Source of the DNA: Clostridia bacterium | GTDB lineage: Bacteria > Bacillota > Clostridia > Oscillospirales > CAG-272 | Direction of reading: 5' to 3' | DNA length: 35,951 nucleotides | NCBI GenBank assembly: GCA_017412675.1 | Contig: JAFPWV010000047.1 | Coordinates: 1-35,951, forward strand | In this document: positions 11,220 to 17,895 of the stretch, one piece after another | Position numbering within the stretch: position 1 is the stretch's first letter | Layout of the letters: every line of letters starts with the position of its first letter | The notes under the pieces: model-generated | The model's database searches: none | Told to the model about the DNA's origin: nothing | The model's input: the letters and a program-made list of their open reading frames with translations, nothing else | Made by a program: the position numbers and the translations under genes

Positions 11220-12104
11220 CTATGCGTTGACCCGCCGGATCGCGGCCGGGCCGCCGTCGGTCGTGACGAGCCACGCGCCGTTTTCAAACGCGGGCAGCAC
11301 TCCGAGCGTCATGCCGGCCCATTGACCGAAATAGTCGTTGGTCTCTTCATGCCCGCAGAGGATCGCCATAACGTCCCGGCTCTCCGCCGCCGCCGAAGAG
11401 ATCCCGCCGTTCACCGTCTGGCACTTCGAGTCCTCGCGGAAAACGCCGTCGAAGCGGCACGCCGCCTGATTCAGGGGGATCTGCGCGTGCTCGGGCGTCG
11501 GGGTGTGGAAGACGAAGAGCTCGCGGAGCGCGTGTCCTGCGGCCTCACAGCGTCTTTGGTGATCCTCGCCGAACCACGCCGTCTGACAGAAGCGCACGCC
11601 GTCCATGTAGTGATGCGAATAGAGCGGATACGGCAGGCGGGAGCGTCCGGGGGAACCGTAATCCCGCTCATAGCCCGTCGTCTCGCGGTGCGTGTCGAAG
11701 AGGCGGATGAGGAACCGGATCTCGCCGCCCGCGCGCATCGGGATCACCGCGTTCGTGATGCCGTCGATGCCCTGTGCGCGCTCGCCGTGGACATATCCGG
11801 CAACGGACGCCATGATCCTCTCGAGATCCTCTGGCAGAAAGCCCGTTTTCCGCTCGCCGTCGCCATAAGTGCAGGTCCATGGGATGCCGCGGCGAACCGG
11901 CGGTCCGAGGAAGGCGGCCAGAAGCGCGGCGGGATCGGGGACGGGTGAGGCGAAGGTGTCGCCGTCGAGGATCACGAGATCGGGAGAGGTTTCCTCGATC
12001 ATCGATGCGAGCCGCGCGGACGACGTTCCGACCGTCTCGGGCGTAAGGCGTGCGGAATGCAGGAGCAGGATGCGGCAGACGCCGTCAAAACAGAGTTCAG
12101 TCAT
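11220..12104 (-). CDS. Degenerate calcineurin-like metallophosphoesterase paralog
   Basis: The start at 12104 (MTELCFDG) has GGGAGGGG upstream and overlaps the stop of the preceding gene by 8 bases. The 294-residue product aligns by eye with its three neighbours (for example GIPWT, the THRETTGYE region and the C-terminal GG region), but most metal ligands are changed. DxH has become HSA, GNHD has become GDGE, and GHxH has become GHEE. Only the GD of DGDT and the His of VFHTP remain. It is likely a pseudoenzyme or binding subunit of the other paralogs. The frame is open and codon use is like its neighbours, so it is not a simple pseudogene. Confidence 0.75.
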   Translation of the reverse strand: MTELCFDGVCRILLLHSARLTPETVGTSSARLASMIEETSPDLVILDGDTFASPVPDPAALLAAFLGPPVRRGIPWTCTYGDGERKTGFLPEDLERIMASVAGYVHGERAQGIDGITNAVIPMRAGGEIRFLIRLFDTHRETTGYERDYGSPGRSRLPYPLYSHHYMDGVRFCQTAWFGEDHQRRCEAAGHALRELFVFHTPTPEHAQIPLNQAACRFDGVFREDSKCQTVNGGISSAAAESRDVMAILCGHEETNDYFGQWAGMTLGVLPAFENGAWLVTTDGGPAAIRRVNA

Positions 12105-13107
12105 CGTGCCCCTCCCGGAAAAGGAAGTCCGCCGCACCCGGGCAGTTCTTCAGATAGATGTGCTCGGACGCGAAGGAGGCGATCTCCCGCTCGGAAAACG
12201 TCAGGAGCCGCCCGCCGCGCAGGAAGTCCGAACCGTACACGTCGTAGCCGAGGGAGCCGTCCTCCGAGAGCTCGATGCCCATGTACCGCCCGGCAAAGGT
12301 GTTGATGTGGTCATGTCCGGCGACGACGGCAAGGATGTCCCCTCGTTCATACGCCGCCGCGAACAGCCCGGAATTGAGCGACGGGATCCCGCAGGACTCC
12401 TCGAGCTCGCCCGTCATGCCGGTGAGGGAGGGATTGGTCGGGATCAGGCGGTGTTCCGGAAGCGGGCTGTGCATGACCATCACGCCGGGGATCCGATGCC
12501 CGAAGGCTTCCTCGATCCGGCGGTCGGTCTCCCAGTACCAGAGCGCCTGCCGGTGGGTGACGCCGCCCCCGTGGTCAAAGCCGGTCGTCTGCGAGCGGAA
12601 TTCCACGGGCTCCGGGATCCCGAATTCACGCTGCCACACCCCGCCGCGGTGCGAATCGAACGCCCAGACGAGGAGCGCGGGCTCTTCCCCGTCTGAGGAA
12701 GGATACACGGGCAGGAGATAAGTGCCGTATCCGGGCAGCTCGGCGGGACCGCGGACCGAGAGGCAATGCGGATATGCCGCGAAAACCTCCGTCGGAATGC
12801 CCTCTTCCCGGTCGTGATTGCCCGGGACGTGCGCCCACGGGATCCCGCGGGATTCCATCGGTCCGGCGATCGCCGCGGCATAGCGTTCGAGACGGTCCCG
12901 GGAGTCGAGCGCGCCGTCGTGCGTCAGGTCGCCGAGGATCAGGAAAAGGTCGGGCCGCACCGCATCGAGCAGGACTTCTTCCGCCCGGATCAGGCGCTCA
13001 TCCCAGTCCCTCTCCGCCGGCGCGTGATAATCCGAAACGCACAGCAGCCGGAACGCGCCGCGCTCATCAAAACAAAGTCTGATTTTCGATTCTTCAAACA
13101 ATGCCAT
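12097..13107 (-). CDS. Calcineurin-like metallophosphoesterase (tandem paralog)
   Basis: This 336-residue protein has the complete metal-site set: SDYH (Asp26, His28), GDLTHD, GNHDRE, VMHSPLPEH and GHDHIN. This predicts a two-metal phosphoesterase of the Icc/YkuE kind, and the absence of a signal peptide puts it in the cytoplasm. The start at 13107 has only weak ribosome-binding sequence (CAGAG), and a 32-base gap separates it from the preceding paralog. Its stop overlaps the next gene by 8 bases. The natural substrate is unknown. Confidence 0.88.
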   Translation of the reverse strand: MALFEESKIRLCFDERGAFRLLCVSDYHAPAERDWDERLIRAEEVLLDAVRPDLFLILGDLTHDGALDSRDRLERYAAAIAGPMESRGIPWAHVPGNHDREEGIPTEVFAAYPHCLSVRGPAELPGYGTYLLPVYPSSDGEEPALLVWAFDSHRGGVWQREFGIPEPVEFRSQTTGFDHGGGVTHRQALWYWETDRRIEEAFGHRIPGVMVMHSPLPEHRLIPTNPSLTGMTGELEESCGIPSLNSGLFAAAYERGDILAVVAGHDHINTFAGRYMGIELSEDGSLGYDVYGSDFLRGGRLLTFSEREIASFASEHIYLKNCPGAADFLFREGHDD

Positions 13108-13139
13108 CTCTGTTCACGATCCCTGTTTCCGGTCCGTTC

Positions 13140-14183
13140 TCATGTGTTCAGGTCCCGGATATAATACTTGTCTCCGCCCTCGAAGAAGTCGGGATTGCGC
13201 ATACACGCCTCGCCGACGAGATCCCACAGCCGCACCTGCCGCGTCTCCATCGAGCCGTCGTCGCGGATGTCGATGATCCGGCCGCCCCGCATGTCGTCGT
13301 GCGCGCTCATGTCGTATCCGACGCAGCCATCGTAGGCCAAGGTGATCCCGCAGTATTCGCCCTGGAAATCGCACAGGTGCTCGTGTCCCGCGAAGATGCC
13401 CCGCACGTCGCCGCGTTCAAGGCACGCAAAGAACAGGCCGCAGTTCATTTCCGAGCAGGCGACGCCCTCGCGCTTACGGCCGATGAAGCCGACGTCCTCC
13501 GGGTTGCGGTAGAGCAGACAGAATTCGAGCAGCGGGACGTGGAGGAACATCAGGGCCGGGATCTTATGCCCGGTTTTCTGTTCCGCGGCCTTCGAGTGGT
13601 TGTAGTACCACATCACCTGATCGAACATCGGGGTCGCCTGCGGGTGTCCGTCGCTGAAATGTTTCGGAAGGACGAAGCGCGTGTCCGCCGGAAGGCCGAA
13701 TTTTGCGACGTAGTCCCGCACCTCGGTGTGCGAATCGAGGGCATAGAGCGAATAGGCGATCCCGTCGCCGTCCTTCTCATACACGGGAAGACAGTAGTTG
13801 GCCACCCCGGAGAGATCGGCGGGTCCGGTGTCCGAGAGGCAGAGTGGGAAGGATTCGTAGACGGGCTCCTGCTCTTCCTTCGTCATCGGCTCCTCCGCGT
13901 CGTGGTTGCCGAAGACGTGCGCCCACGGGATCCCGCGGTGGTTCATCGGATCGGTGACGTCCGTAAGATAGCGTTTCAGAATCTCCGGCGTGATCCCGAC
14001 GAGCTGGTCGCCGCCGAGCATCACGAAATCGGGCTTCGCGTAGTCGACGAGCAGATCGATCGCCCAGGTCAGCTTCGGGTTGTAGTCCGGCTTGCCGTGG
14101 AAGTCGGAGATCATCAGGATGCGGAAGCCGCCGTCCCCGCGGAACCGGAGAACGGGCTTCCCTCTTTCGTCCGTGGTCTTCAT
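13140..14183 (-). CDS. Calcineurin-like metallophosphoesterase (tandem paralog)
   Basis: The 347-residue protein starts at 14183 (MKTTDERG), in an ATGA overlap with the preceding paralog; the frame upstream to 14498 lies in that gene. The motifs are intact: ISDFHG, LGGDQ, GNHDAE, FLHVPLLEF and GHEHLCDF. It shares the segment layout GIPWAHVFGNHD and the YDG-VGYDMSAHD C-terminal stretch with its neighbours. Predicted cytoplasmic phosphoesterase with two metal ions. The coupled start suggests fixed ratios between paralogs, perhaps a hetero-oligomer. Confidence 0.88.
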   Translation of the reverse strand: MKTTDERGKPVLRFRGDGGFRILMISDFHGKPDYNPKLTWAIDLLVDYAKPDFVMLGGDQLVGITPEILKRYLTDVTDPMNHRGIPWAHVFGNHDAEEPMTKEEQEPVYESFPLCLSDTGPADLSGVANYCLPVYEKDGDGIAYSLYALDSHTEVRDYVAKFGLPADTRFVLPKHFSDGHPQATPMFDQVMWYYNHSKAAEQKTGHKIPALMFLHVPLLEFCLLYRNPEDVGFIGRKREGVACSEMNCGLFFACLERGDVRGIFAGHEHLCDFQGEYCGITLAYDGCVGYDMSAHDDMRGGRIIDIRDDGSMETRQVRLWDLVGEACMRNPDFFEGGDKYYIRDLNT

Positions 14184-15199
14184 CCGACGCTGTCCCCCGC
14201 ATGACCCATGATGTCGGCGATCTTCACCGTGCGGGTCGTGAGCGCGGCGGGATCGGACGCCCGGAAATCGATCACCCGGCCCCCGCGGAGCTCGTTGATC
14301 TGGCAGGCGTGATAACTGAGCGAGGCGTCGTACGCCATGCGGATGCCCATGTAGGTGACGTCGAAATCGTTCAGGTGGTCGTGTCCGAAGAAGATGCCCT
14401 TCACGTCCCCGCGCTCGAGGCAGGCCCGGAACAGACCGGAATTGAGCGAGGAGCAGGCGACGTCCTCCCATTGAATGCCGCGCAGATTCACGTCGCACCG
14501 GTGCTTCGACGCCTCATGCATCTCCGGCGGGGGAATGTGCATGAAGAGGACGGCGGGGATCTTCCGCCCTTCTTCGCGCTCGATTTCCCGGGAGGTCTGG
14601 TAATACCAGATCACCTGATCCATATTGACGGTGTCGTAGTCGCTGCGGTCGCCGACATCGGGTTCGAGGACCCGGAGCGAGGGATCGACACCCCAGCGGG
14701 CGGCCCAGTCGCGCATCCCGGAATGGGAATCGAGGGCAAAGATGTTGAGAAGCAGCGTTTCCCCGTCGGCGGAATAGACCGGCAGGACGTAATTGCCGAC
14801 GCCGGAGAGCTCTTCGGGCCCCGCCTCCGAGAGGCAATGGGGATACGATTCGTAGATCCGCTCGGCCTCCTCGTTCGGCAGACCGTAGTTGTCGTCGTGG
14901 TTGCCGCAGACGTGGCACCACGGGATCCCGGCCTCCTCCATGGGAGCCGTCAGACCGTCGAGCATATCGCGCAGCTGATCGGCGTTTTCGATGTGGATGA
15001 CGCCGGGGCCGGCCGTATCTCCGCCCAGGACGACGAGGTCGGGATGCTCCGCTTCGAGCAGAGCGCTGAGCGCGGCCACGGTCTTTTCGCGGTTGTAGCC
15101 GACGCCGCCGTGGATATCCGAGACCATGAGGATGCGGAAGCCGCCGTCCTCTCGGAACCGGAGCGGGATTTTGGTGGGATGCAGCGCGGATGAAGCCAT
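14180..15199 (-). CDS. Calcineurin-like metallophosphoesterase (first gene of the operon)
   Basis: I chose the start at 15199 (MASSALHPTK) because AGAGGA lies about 8 bases upstream and the promoter boxes at 15233-15261 lie before it; the frame upstream to 15331 would run through the promoter. The 339-residue product has VSDIHGG, LGGDTAG, GNHDDN, FMHIPPPEM and GHDHLND, so all metal ligands are present. It leads the operon of four such paralogs, a ThuA-like protein and a glycosidase-like protein. Substrate unknown; a phosphorylated sugar would suit the neighbours but is only inference. Confidence 0.88.
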   Translation of the reverse strand: MASSALHPTKIPLRFREDGGFRILMVSDIHGGVGYNREKTVAALSALLEAEHPDLVVLGGDTAGPGVIHIENADQLRDMLDGLTAPMEEAGIPWCHVCGNHDDNYGLPNEEAERIYESYPHCLSEAGPEELSGVGNYVLPVYSADGETLLLNIFALDSHSGMRDWAARWGVDPSLRVLEPDVGDRSDYDTVNMDQVIWYYQTSREIEREEGRKIPAVLFMHIPPPEMHEASKHRCDVNLRGIQWEDVACSSLNSGLFRACLERGDVKGIFFGHDHLNDFDVTYMGIRMAYDASLSYHACQINELRGGRVIDFRASDPAALTTRTVKIADIMGHAGDSVG

Positions 15200-15232
15200 G
15201 GGATGTCCTCTTTCGGAAAGTCTGTTTTGTAC

Positions 15233-15261
15233 ATTATAACCAATTTCCGAGCGATAGTCAA
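15233..15261 (-). promoter_or_regulatory. Promoter of the metallophosphoesterase operon
   Basis: On the minus strand, TTGACT (15256-15261), a 17-base spacer and TATAAT (15233-15238). The expected start of transcription is near 15226, about 27 bases before the first start codon. Confidence 0.88.
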
Positions 15262-15312
15262 GACGGAAATCTAAAATCGTGAGAGGAGCGCGGAAGATGG
15301 ATGGATAAAGCA

Positions 15313-15354
15313 AACGGCCGTGCCGCTGCATGGAGGGACAGCCGCACGACCGTT
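15313..15354 (-). terminator. Hairpin downstream of the serpin gene
   Basis: AACGG/CCGTT, CGTGC/GCACG and GCTG/CAGC stack in one long stem with small mismatches (15313-15354). The minus-strand tail TTTGCTTTATCC is only weakly T-rich. It lies 65 bases past the serpin stop and before the next promoter, so it probably ends the sigma/serpin transcript. Confidence 0.5.
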
Positions 15355-15418: not shown

Positions 15419-17164
15419 TCAGTCGACGATGTCGTTGACTGCGCCTGCCAGCAGCACCGTTCCGTCCTCCGCGGTGATAAGAACGGCGAAGGGGCGGTCG
15501 ATGATCACCGCAGCGTCGGGCGTTCCCTTCTTCGGGGCCTCGCGCGGGGAGCGGTAATAGATGCTGTACGCGCCGGTCTTCACGCCGGTTTCGTTGATCA
15601 TCAGCCGGATCGGCTGGGGCACGTCCGTGACAGCGTATATCTTTTCCGCCGCCGACTCGTCCTCCGCCTTCTGCCGGTATTGACGGAGCTCGTCTTCGAG
15701 GCGCTGTTCTTCTTCCCGGATGAGCTCTTCGAGCGATTTCAACCTTGTTCGGATCTCGTGCTCATTCTTCGGGCTGGACGCGTCTGCCTCTGCGGCTGCG
15801 GTGAAATACTCCTCGATCTTGCCGAGGATGCTGTTGACGCTGTTCTGCATGGTCTTGAGGGTGATCCGGTCATAGCTCCATGCGCTTTCAAATTCCGAGA
15901 ACTCCTTATCCGTCCCGAGGAACGGGGAGAGATTCGCTTCGCCGGGGATGAACGCCTTGTCCGCGCCGAGCTCGGTGAAAAGGTCCTTCAGATCGATCTC
16001 CGACGCGACGCTGAAGCACGGGACGGCTGCGGTGGTCTCTTTCCCCTCGTCACCGGATTTTGTCGCCGAGAAGAGCGTGCCCGCAGTGAGCAGGCTCTCC
16101 GGGCTCTTCCCTTCCTCCGGGAGCGCGAGCCAGAGATCGCCGCCCACGAGCAGCGGGATGCGCACGGCGGAGAAGCCATCCCCGCTCACCGCATAAGCCT
16201 TCGGCGCGACGACGTAATCCGCTTCGCATTCGCCGGATTTGCCACTGAACGTCGATCTGCGTTTCTTTGCGAGGTCGGCGGGATCGACCCACGCCGAGCG
16301 GACGTAGAGATAGCGGTCGAGCTCGATGCGGTCTTCCGGGCCGTACTCCCGCTGAATGGACTCGAGACCGCCGAAACCGAACGTAGACTTTCCGCCCGTC
16401 CATCCCGCACTGTGGCCGAAACCGGAGACAAAGCGAATGAAGCTGAAGGGAGAAGAATACATCCTCCTGTTCGCACTGTCGTAGAGCTTCTTTTGCAGGG
16501 GGTCATACAGAGCGACCCGCTCCGAATCGATTTTCCCGTCGACAACGACCTGATCTTCGGGAATATAGAAATGCGCGTTCAGATCGCCGTAAGTGACACA
16601 GACCGTCACGGCGTCCTGACGGGTGAAGACTTTTAGCTGCTCCTCCATCCGGTTCTCGAAGTCCGTGAGATCCTCTTCCCCGGCGATGTTCATGAGCTGG
16701 GTCCGTGTTTGCCCGGCGGTCATGTCCGCGAGGGAGACGAGGCACAATTCGGCGTTGAGAGGCGAATAGAAGAGGTTTTCGCCCGAGGATGAGGCAAAGA
16801 GCGTCGCGGTGGACCGCTCGGCAAACTCACCCTTCGGCATGACGTCCGCGACCTTCTCGTCGGTCTCCTCCCGCCATGCGAGATAGTCTTCGACGGTGAA
16901 TTCCTCGAGGTTCGGATAGACGTTCGCGCCCGCGAGATAGGGCTCGGCGATGCAGGTGGCGTAGGTCACCTCGACCCGATGCGTCCAGCCGTAGAGGATG
17001 CCGCCCGCCGCGATGACCACGGCAGCCGCGAGCGTTCCCCACCGGCGCGCGAATTGGCGGAAAGGCTTCGTTTTCTGGTTCGGGCGGCTGCGCACGGCCT
17101 CCGTCTCCGCGAGGATGCCGTCGTCGAGTCCGCCGATGGCTTCGTAGAGTTTTTCAGATTTCAC
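15419..17164 (-). CDS. Membrane-anchored serpin with anti-sigma-like cytoplasmic tail
   Basis: This 581-residue protein has a short cytoplasmic N-terminus (1-43, with KLYEAIGGLDDGILAETE, a segment typical of membrane proteins paired with sigma factors in Clostridia) and one membrane helix (about 44-60). A serpin-like ectodomain follows: ENLFYSPLNAELCLVSLADMTAGQTRTQL (129-157, split around SPLNAEL), FSVASEIDLKDLFTELG (384-400), INETGVKTGA (523-532, hinge-like) and DRPFAVLI (556-563). Residues about 416-510 are an acidic, coiled-coil-like insertion not found in ordinary serpins. The reactive loop would be about 525-553. Its start overlaps the sigma-factor stop in ATGA. I infer a sigma-factor regulator that senses proteases; inhibition itself is unproven because the hinge is only partly canonical. 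Confidence 0.78.
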   Translation of the reverse strand: MKSEKLYEAIGGLDDGILAETEAVRSRPNQKTKPFRQFARRWGTLAAAVVIAAGGILYGWTHRVEVTYATCIAEPYLAGANVYPNLEEFTVEDYLAWREETDEKVADVMPKGEFAERSTATLFASSSGENLFYSPLNAELCLVSLADMTAGQTRTQLMNIAGEEDLTDFENRMEEQLKVFTRQDAVTVCVTYGDLNAHFYIPEDQVVVDGKIDSERVALYDPLQKKLYDSANRRMYSSPFSFIRFVSGFGHSAGWTGGKSTFGFGGLESIQREYGPEDRIELDRYLYVRSAWVDPADLAKKRRSTFSGKSGECEADYVVAPKAYAVSGDGFSAVRIPLLVGGDLWLALPEEGKSPESLLTAGTLFSATKSGDEGKETTAAVPCFSVASEIDLKDLFTELGADKAFIPGEANLSPFLGTDKEFSEFESAWSYDRITLKTMQNSVNSILGKIEEYFTAAAEADASSPKNEHEIRTRLKSLEELIREEEQRLEDELRQYRQKAEDESAAEKIYAVTDVPQPIRLMINETGVKTGAYSIYYRSPREAPKKGTPDAAVIIDRPFAVLITAEDGTVLLAGAVNDIVD

Positions 17165-17778
17165 AGGTCAAATCCCTCCTGTTCAAGATAGGTTCTGAGG
17201 CCGGCCCTTGCGCGGAACAGCGCGCTTTTCACCTTCGATACGGTGCAGCCGAGGCGGTCGGCGGTGTCCTTCAGGTCGTCGCCGTAGAAATAGCGCGAGA
17301 CAAAGATGATCCTGGCATCCGGGGCGAGGGTGCGGAGATAGTCGCCGATCGCCGCGCGCAGGCGGTTGTCCTCCGCTTCGTCCTCGACCCCTTGCGATCC
17401 CGTGACGATCTCTTCAAGTTCGTCGAACGGCCGGGTCATTCGCTGCGGGACCCGTTTCTCCGCGCGGAGCTTTCGGAGCAGATCGACGGCGGCGGTGCGG
17501 GTGAGCCGCGCGAGGAAAAGGCGGAGGAAATCCGGCCTCTTCGGCGGGATCATGCTCCAGGCGCGGAAGTACGCATCGCTGACGCATTCCTCCGCATCCT
17601 CCTCGGTGGGCAGAAAATTCCGCGCGATGGTCATGAGATAGGGTCCGTAGCGCGCGGCGCAGTCGGCGATGGCGCGTTCGTCGCGGTCCCAGAAGAGGGC
17701 GACGATCCGCTGATCCGCCTGCGTTTCGGCATCTGCTTCAGGCATATCGGAAGAGCGGACGGCAAGTTCCGGGTTCAT
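17161..17778 (-). CDS. ECF-type RNA polymerase sigma factor
   Basis: The 205-residue protein has sigma region 2 (about 25-95, with YGPYLMTIARNFLPTEEDAEECVSDAYFRAW split around EEDAEECV) and region 4 (about 140-200, with RYFYGDDLKDTADRLGC and SKVKSALFRARAGLRTYL). Region 3 is missing, which defines the ECF group. The start at 17778 has AGGAG about 8 bases upstream. The next gene overlaps its stop by 4 bases and encodes a membrane protein with a serpin outside, the likely cognate anti-sigma factor. A GAAAC-N16-CGTC sequence upstream may be its own target promoter. Confidence 0.92.
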   Translation of the reverse strand: MNPELAVRSSDMPEADAETQADQRIVALFWDRDERAIADCAARYGPYLMTIARNFLPTEEDAEECVSDAYFRAWSMIPPKRPDFLRLFLARLTRTAAVDLLRKLRAEKRVPQRMTRPFDELEEIVTGSQGVEDEAEDNRLRAAIGDYLRTLAPDARIIFVSRYFYGDDLKDTADRLGCTVSKVKSALFRARAGLRTYLEQEGFDL

Positions 17779-17822: not shown

Positions 17823-17847
17823 GACGTATTTTCGTGCGAAAGGTTTC
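17823..17847 (-). promoter_or_regulatory. Candidate autoregulatory ECF promoter
   Basis: On the minus strand GAAAC (17843-17847) is followed after 16 bases by CGTC (17823-17826), the arrangement preferred by many ECF sigma factors (AAC-type -35 and CGTC/CGTA -10). It lies 45 bases upstream of the sigma-factor start codon. Confidence 0.6.
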
Positions 17848-17895
17848 GCGGTTTTTGAAAAAAACTCAAAAAAGTTTCGGGATCCCCGGAAATCC

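Follow-up and report, generated by a model that had tools for sequence, protein, structure and literature searches.

A serpin as the putative sensor domain of a proposed membrane anti-sigma factor in a relative of gut Clostridia

What does a membrane-anchored serpin do when it is encoded directly behind an ECF sigma factor? This question is raised by a locus on a contig from a Clostridia bacterium, of which we analysed a stretch of 35,951 nucleotides (the window). The membrane serpin gene adjoins the sigma factor gene, and its product has a predicted cytoplasmic N-terminus and one membrane helix (Table 1). An earlier note on this DNA had described the two genes as overlapping in ATGA; the overlap was confirmed, but it reads GTGA, with GTG as the serpin start codon. 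We favour the reading that the two genes form a transmembrane signalling unit, in which the second product would be a serpin-bearing membrane anti-sigma factor with its reactive loop as protease bait, and we put its probability at roughly 60%.

Table 1. Coordinates of the sigma-serpin locus in the window, with the basis of each assignment
Feature	Position	Strand	Basis
ECF sigma factor gene, 205 aa, regions 2 and 4	17161..17778	-	Pfam Sigma70_r2 and r4_2 over cut-off
Membrane-anchored serpin gene, 581 aa, GTG start	15419..17164	-	start overlaps sigma stop (GTGA)
Cytoplasmic tail, residues 1-40, putative anti-sigma domain	17045..17164	-	sigma-group census and coevolution with region 4
Tail helix, residues 13-21, predicted contact with sigma residues 145-160	17102..17128	-	top couplings mapped onto the window
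Membrane helix, about residues 42-58	16991..17041	-	model helix 37-58; hydropathy scan
Juxtamembrane extension, residues 59-106, membrane to serpin body	16847..16990	-	clade consensus AYAxAEAxYPE...YP
Serpin domain, residues 106-581	15422..16849	-	Pfam match and predicted fold
Helical insert, residues 419-505, two long helices	15650..15910	-	structure model, orthologue comparison
Reactive-loop region, residues 525-556, hinge ETGVKTGAY, P1 by count R541	15497..15592	-	hinge parsing
ECF-type promoter motif CGAAAC-N14-TACGTC, upstream of sigma gene	17823..17848	-	same motif in 4/4 genomes

The Sigma70 region 2 and region 4 models were the only ones over cut-off in the sigma factor, which thus has no region 3, and its best PDB sequence match was CnrH (4cxf, E 4.9e-8). 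For the second protein, the earlier note had claimed a serpin ectodomain and proposed fold prediction as a check. The protein scored 58.2 bits against Pfam Serpin (curated cut-off, 27), and the structure model showed a serpin core, with tengpin (2pee) aligning from residue 78; the claim was thus borne out, and a non-serpin fold was not seen. In the model, a tail helix was placed at residues 15-26 at low confidence, and the juxtamembrane consensus of the clade was only partly kept in the window protein (Y83 P84). Directly downstream of the pair lie four consecutive ORFs (window 11220-15331, minus strand), whose motifs resemble those of metallophosphoesterases. Plasmid records gave no match.

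The recurrence of the gene pair was investigated in two overlapping sets of loci. Serpins were found in 99 of 146 genomes of the family, and 72 family loci, partly hand-picked (40 from listed matches, favouring weaker matches and longer frames), contained 80 serpin ORFs of at least 300 aa (79 distinct, one being entered twice), 24 of them with an ECF gene directly upstream. All 24 linked serpins possessed a tail of at least 23 residues plus a membrane helix, and 2 of the 56 unlinked serpins were classed in the same way; by our reading, the starts of these two were miscalled. A scan of named genomes detected at least 479 relatives among 591 candidate stretches, and the best 80 loci were kept. 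These contained 87 serpin ORFs, 60 with an ECF gene directly upstream, and tail and helix were present in 56 of the 60 linked and 4 of the 27 unlinked serpins, the starts of linked proteins having been picked next to the sigma stop, which biases toward long tails. Two of the four linked exceptions fell just short (residues 21-22), and the other two were helix-free in the first 90 residues. The four unlinked serpins with tail and helix were L110, L117, L143_9 and L150_8, and the L110 locus has only ~170 bases upstream.

From these loci, 80 non-redundant sigma-serpin pairs were obtained, with the window pair left out and a second pair from its own genome (79.6% complete) included; this second pair lies on another contig and has a more canonical hinge. 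The record titles of the listed relatives name Oscillospiraceae, Lachnospiraceae and other Clostridia, among them Flavonifractor and Pseudoflavonifractor records that carry no metagenome-assembly label. A class-wide scan at E 1e-60, a strict cut that the window's own serpin fails, gave family profile matches in 20 of 291 genomes, and 2 of the 20 matches listed reached the tail start; outside the family, the pair looks patchy across the class. Orthologues of the window serpin (~65% identity) numbered three among 25 genus genomes searched, the window's own included, and one of the three has an in-frame stop. The search for the pair in other genomes that the earlier note had proposed therefore found it in many relatives, and the lack of conservation that would count against the idea was not seen. 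Some loci show further arrangements. Two sigma-serpin pairs stand in tandem at L049, where the first serpin ORF is interrupted; another serpin gene immediately follows the pair at L143; and the ORF that follows the L133 pair has a secretion-type start. At L009 (234-2450, minus strand), a 738-aa serpin with no adjacent ECF gene found carries N-terminal repeats resembling S-layer homology domains.

We then turned to the sigma factor. The window sigma factor was searched in 40 family genomes, 32 of which had matches, and from the subset of matches fetched we obtained 96 sigma ORFs, 94 with a following gene, and 92 non-redundant pairs. With starts again picked next to the sigma stop, a tail plus membrane helix was encoded downstream in 91 of the 92, with a -4 overlap in 78. 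A serpin ectodomain was present in at least 6 of the 92, counting the two pairs of the window's own genome, possibly an undercount, as 18 non-serpin frames run off the locus and five open-ended frames are shorter than 250 aa. Two further sigma-group members of the window's own genome precede tail-plus-helix proteins without a Pfam match. L088, L089 and L207-L295 stand for an extensive set of ECF/anti-sigma pairs in this bacterial family, which share a short tail and differ widely in their ectodomains; one genome (G011) contained up to 19 sigma matches.

Among the 80 non-redundant sigma-serpin pairs, three tail types were distinguished (A, 74; B, 5; C, 1), and the type B and C pairs have sigma factors and tails unlike those of type A. 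Between types A and B, identity was 19% for the sigma factor, 16% for the tail and 47% for the serpin; within type A, the corresponding values were 43%, 28% and 49%. Judged by these identities, tail type follows the sigma factor, not the serpin. A serpin tree, built by a quick method without bootstraps from 88 rows sampled from those collected, contained one group (SH-aLRT 99) of 42 type A, 5 type B and 15 unlinked serpins, with the type B serpins interspersed among those of type A. The type C pair and the type A member L055, which has a long branch, fell outside this group, among serpins that are mainly unlinked, which makes more than one origin of the coupling probable.

The contact between tail and sigma factor was examined by mean-field direct coupling analysis of 160 sigma-tail pairs (74 serpin, 86 non-serpin). 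The top couplings of the tail reached 11.6, 9.7, 8.2, 7.7 and 7.6 sd, compared with 5.3 sd for the best coupling of the membrane helix of the same proteins, a control of 22 columns against the 32 of the tail. The ten best tail couplings averaged 7.0 sd, versus 3.4 in permuted pairings (maximum 3.8, 15 permutations). The two subsets behaved similarly, with a weaker signal: with five permutations each, the value was 6.4 for the 74 serpin pairs (membrane 4.9, permuted 4.2) and 5.3 for the 86 non-serpin pairs (membrane 3.9, permuted 3.8). R135-E20 and V139-L17 were among the best eight couplings of both subsets, and the remaining couplings differed. The leading couplings were chemically sensible: arginine with glutamate, valine with isoleucine and leucine four residues apart, and arginine with aspartate. 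When another residue takes the place of the sigma arginine in the first of these pairs, the tail mostly has arginine or lysine at its own position.

The window equivalents are sigma R156 with tail E20 and V160 with L13 and I17. Two more of the five best couplings correspond to R149 with G16, the arginine-aspartate pair, whose charge partner is lost in the window, and to G145 opposite D14. The window sigma residues involved (145-160) fall within region 4 (Pfam match 142-192). Comparison of the tail with solved anti-sigma domains yielded only chance-looking sequence matches, and no curated anti-sigma family exceeded its cut-off for the window protein. The census (91 of 92) and the coevolution with sigma region 4 support an anti-sigma role of the tail, as the earlier note had supposed, and identify it as the putative sigma-binding part. 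Lack of an interaction between the N-terminus and the sigma factor, which would speak against that idea, was examined through coevolution only, which favours contact.

We also examined promoter motifs. CGARAC-N14-TACGTC was present before the sigma gene in all four orthologue-bearing genomes (window, L175, L176 and G157 among these); in G157, the sigma start lies at the edge of a contig other than that of the serpin and was linked to it by likeness of the sigma start. In the window's own genome the motif occurs exactly at two more places. The first is 42 bases upstream of a lipoprotein gene whose product has a solute-binding domain. G165 has a single additional site, 40 bases upstream of a homologue (31% identity) that itself matches no Pfam family; the lipoprotein site is thus present in only two of the four genomes. 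No further exact site was found in G157 or G159, and the reversed control pattern gave one match, in G159. The lipoprotein family has 31 match rows in the window's own genome, one of them with the exact motif, which makes a chance match unlikely. The second further site (on C160), flanked by two reverse-strand ORFs, overlaps one of them at its end and reads antisense into that ORF; no target is evident. Free serpins were rejected as targets, as none of the three exact sites in this genome precedes a serpin gene. The lipoproteins of the family with 31 match rows, seen at L306 (G000:C208) and elsewhere in this genome, are ~800 aa long; four stand in tandem on C208, one has a solute-binding domain match, and several end in AAKIQSRxSIWLAEH.

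A GAAAC-CGT promoter shared by all pairs was also rejected, only 2 of 77 upstream regions carrying one. A different motif, TGTNAC-N13-TTGCGACT, exceeded the 99% threshold of single-base shuffles in 32 of 77 pair upstreams, the set on which it was trained, and in held-out halves, with the window excluded, it was found in 57 of 152 versus 6 of 152 reversed. The window promoter has the same 13-nt spacing and scored 5.9 against this motif, below the threshold of 7.7.

We investigated the reactive loop in 71 parsed linked serpins, the window included. P12 was alanine or glycine in 69, P11 alanine in 56, P10 alanine or serine in 69, P9 tyrosine or phenylalanine in 67, and P1 alanine, serine, glycine or threonine in 65. 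The hinge mostly reads G-[VC]-x-A-A-A-[YF]-T and the loop centre G-A|A-x-P-P. In inhibitory serpins, P9 is usually a small residue. Of 105 non-redundant serpins, 9 did not fit the hinge pattern (7 of these are linked, and one is an incomplete ORF), and for L059, a linked serpin, the parse was wrong. Human neutrophil elastase and proteinase 3 accept valine or alanine at P1, according to excerpts of the siropin study (PMC5127057), and the prevailing bait may therefore hint at the type of ligand, at most.

The bait of the linked serpins also occurs in unlinked clade members, most of which were classed as lipoprotein or signal-peptide proteins, so that the sensor and the free inhibitors may be exposed to the same proteases. 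This sharing, the small-residue hinge and bait of most linked serpins, and the ECF-type motifs upstream of the operon in some pairs and in the window lineage would also suit an ectodomain that is the effector, namely a membrane-anchored protease inhibitor dosed by its own sigma factor, with membrane or wall stress sensed elsewhere. We regard this as unlikely: the ectodomain varies over a constant tail in the sigma group, with serpins in at least 6 of 92 pairs, which is the pattern of a sensor slot, and serpins are attached to three sigma/tail types.

The window copy departs from its relatives. Its hinge reads T-G-A-Y from P12 to P9, with threonine at P12, glycine at P11 and tyrosine at P9, and its very long branch (4.32), which leaves its position in the tree unsure, suggests that this copy may not inhibit. 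The helical insert has a similar stretch in the three orthologues and evolves fast: dN/dS between the window protein and two orthologues was 0.51 and 0.36 overall, values that suggest that the protein is kept, and 0.80 and 0.48 in the insert. The unusual hinge, long insert and long branch, together with the degenerate hinge of the linked L055, could point to a non-inhibitory sensor, a metastable scaffold for a ligand or stress like the hormone-carrying serpins, by which no protease is trapped. This we judge improbable, as hinge and bait are conserved in most linked serpins and, within the window lineage, the window and its three orthologues keep both a basic P1 by count (R; K, R and K, respectively) and the hinge G-V-K-T-[GA]-A.

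In the favoured reading, the serpin-bearing anti-sigma factor would act as follows. The tail helix (residues 13-21) would bind sigma region 4, as coevolution suggests, and hold the sigma factor inactive. The reactive loop would most likely be the bait, cut by or trapping an extracellular protease, and the irreversible rearrangement of the serpin could then alter or expose the segment between serpin and membrane. By analogy with RsiV, site-1 cleavage followed by a site-2 protease might release the sigma factor, which, from the promoter motifs, would transcribe its own operon and probably the solute-binding-type lipoprotein gene. The N-terminal tail of tengpin suggests how an N-terminal segment of a serpin could report its state. 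A family of M50 (site-2-type) proteases is present in the window's own genome, and also in 14 of 14 control genomes, as are two subtilisin-type proteases in the former; the presence of these enzymes proves nothing for the mechanism. An AxA motif that would suit signal peptidase occurs in 57 of 60 linked and 21 of 27 unlinked clade members, only mildly above shuffles (57 of 74 versus 45), and was rejected as a specific sign of site-1 cleavage. Among 28 ORFs lying no farther than 400 nt from 60 pairs, whose first 50 residues were inspected by eye, no downstream gene or protease recurred.

The same architecture would also accommodate a serpin that guards the anti-sigma factor by inhibiting the site-1 protease, the signal arising when other proteases use up the serpin; no site-1 protease was identified, and we give this very little credence. 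That the two genes are mere chance neighbours, the second unrelated to the sigma factor, is contradicted by the recurrent overlap, the recurrent tail and the residue coevolution and is barely credible.

A more specific form of the signalling reading is that, in gut Clostridia and more than once, a serpin-sensor anti-sigma factor became a single-use membrane fuse. Protease attack would be converted into transcription through the native-to-relaxed transition, with the conserved N-terminal extension as the link to the membrane, an elastase-like bait in many members and a trypsin-like one (basic P1) in the window lineage. We hold this tentatively, at a little short of even odds, and judged by sequence it leans more on the relatives than on the window copy, with its long branch and non-standard hinge. 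If true, bacterial serpins would be receptors and not only inhibitors, and a transmembrane gene switch would be driven by a protein rearrangement that ranks among the largest irreversible ones known. Intestinal commensals could then directly read the protease activity around them, and there would be a reason for the cytoplasmic tail and membrane helix on part of their many serpins. E20, R156, P1 and the hinge residues make the fuse idea directly testable, and the wider sigma/tail family offers a modular ectodomain slot for which the ligand of each member could be sought.

A search of the open literature (titles, beginnings of abstracts and passages among the best-ranked papers, with subscription papers and preprints outside its scope) found no description of a serpin paired with an ECF/anti-sigma system. 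The ECF/anti-sigma scheme itself is known, and a serpin as its sensor appears not to have been described before. The RsgI anti-sigma-I factors resemble the window protein in being membrane anti-sigma factors with an extracellular module as sensor, but their partner is SigI, which is not of the ECF kind. In cellulosome-forming clostridia, RsgI proteins carry varied extracellular sensor modules, and the sensing described in excerpts of these studies concerns polysaccharides, not proteases (PMC3413522, PMC12484212). The siropins, tengpin and other Group T serpins are bacterial serpins like that of the window. The siropins of one gut bacterium act as inhibitors of neutrophil elastase and proteinase 3, and the N-terminal tail of tengpin has been compared to the site at which vitronectin stabilises PAI-1 in its native state; the excerpts of these accounts mention neither a sigma partner nor a membrane helix (PMC5127057, PMC8233489).

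A known parallel for the tail is CnrY, a class II anti-sigma factor of Cupriavidus metallidurans, whose short two-helix domain wraps its sigma factor (PMC7406223). Domains of this class have two helices and fewer than about 50 aa; the window tail, of ~40 aa, recalls them, with two helices predicted at low confidence, and the window sigma factor has CnrH as best PDB match. In the excerpts of the CnrY account, helix 1 lies on region 4 and helix 2 on region 2, whereas in the window the second predicted helix is coupled to region 4, without a clear contact to region 2. For the unit as a whole, the precedent is RsiV/sigma-V of Bacillus subtilis and Clostridioides difficile. The ectodomain differs: in the window protein the serpin is the only Pfam family over cut-off, and an RsiV-type ectodomain is absent. 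Both systems combine an ECF sigma factor with a membrane anti-sigma factor, a putative one in the window, and the ectodomain of RsiV meets an enzyme. RsiV responds to lysozyme and, as excerpts of its description state, is cut by the site-2 protease RasP and also where its ectodomain joins the membrane, at a site for signal peptidase (PMC9044953), a sequence of events that could serve as the model for release of the sigma factor from a serpin-bearing anti-sigma factor.
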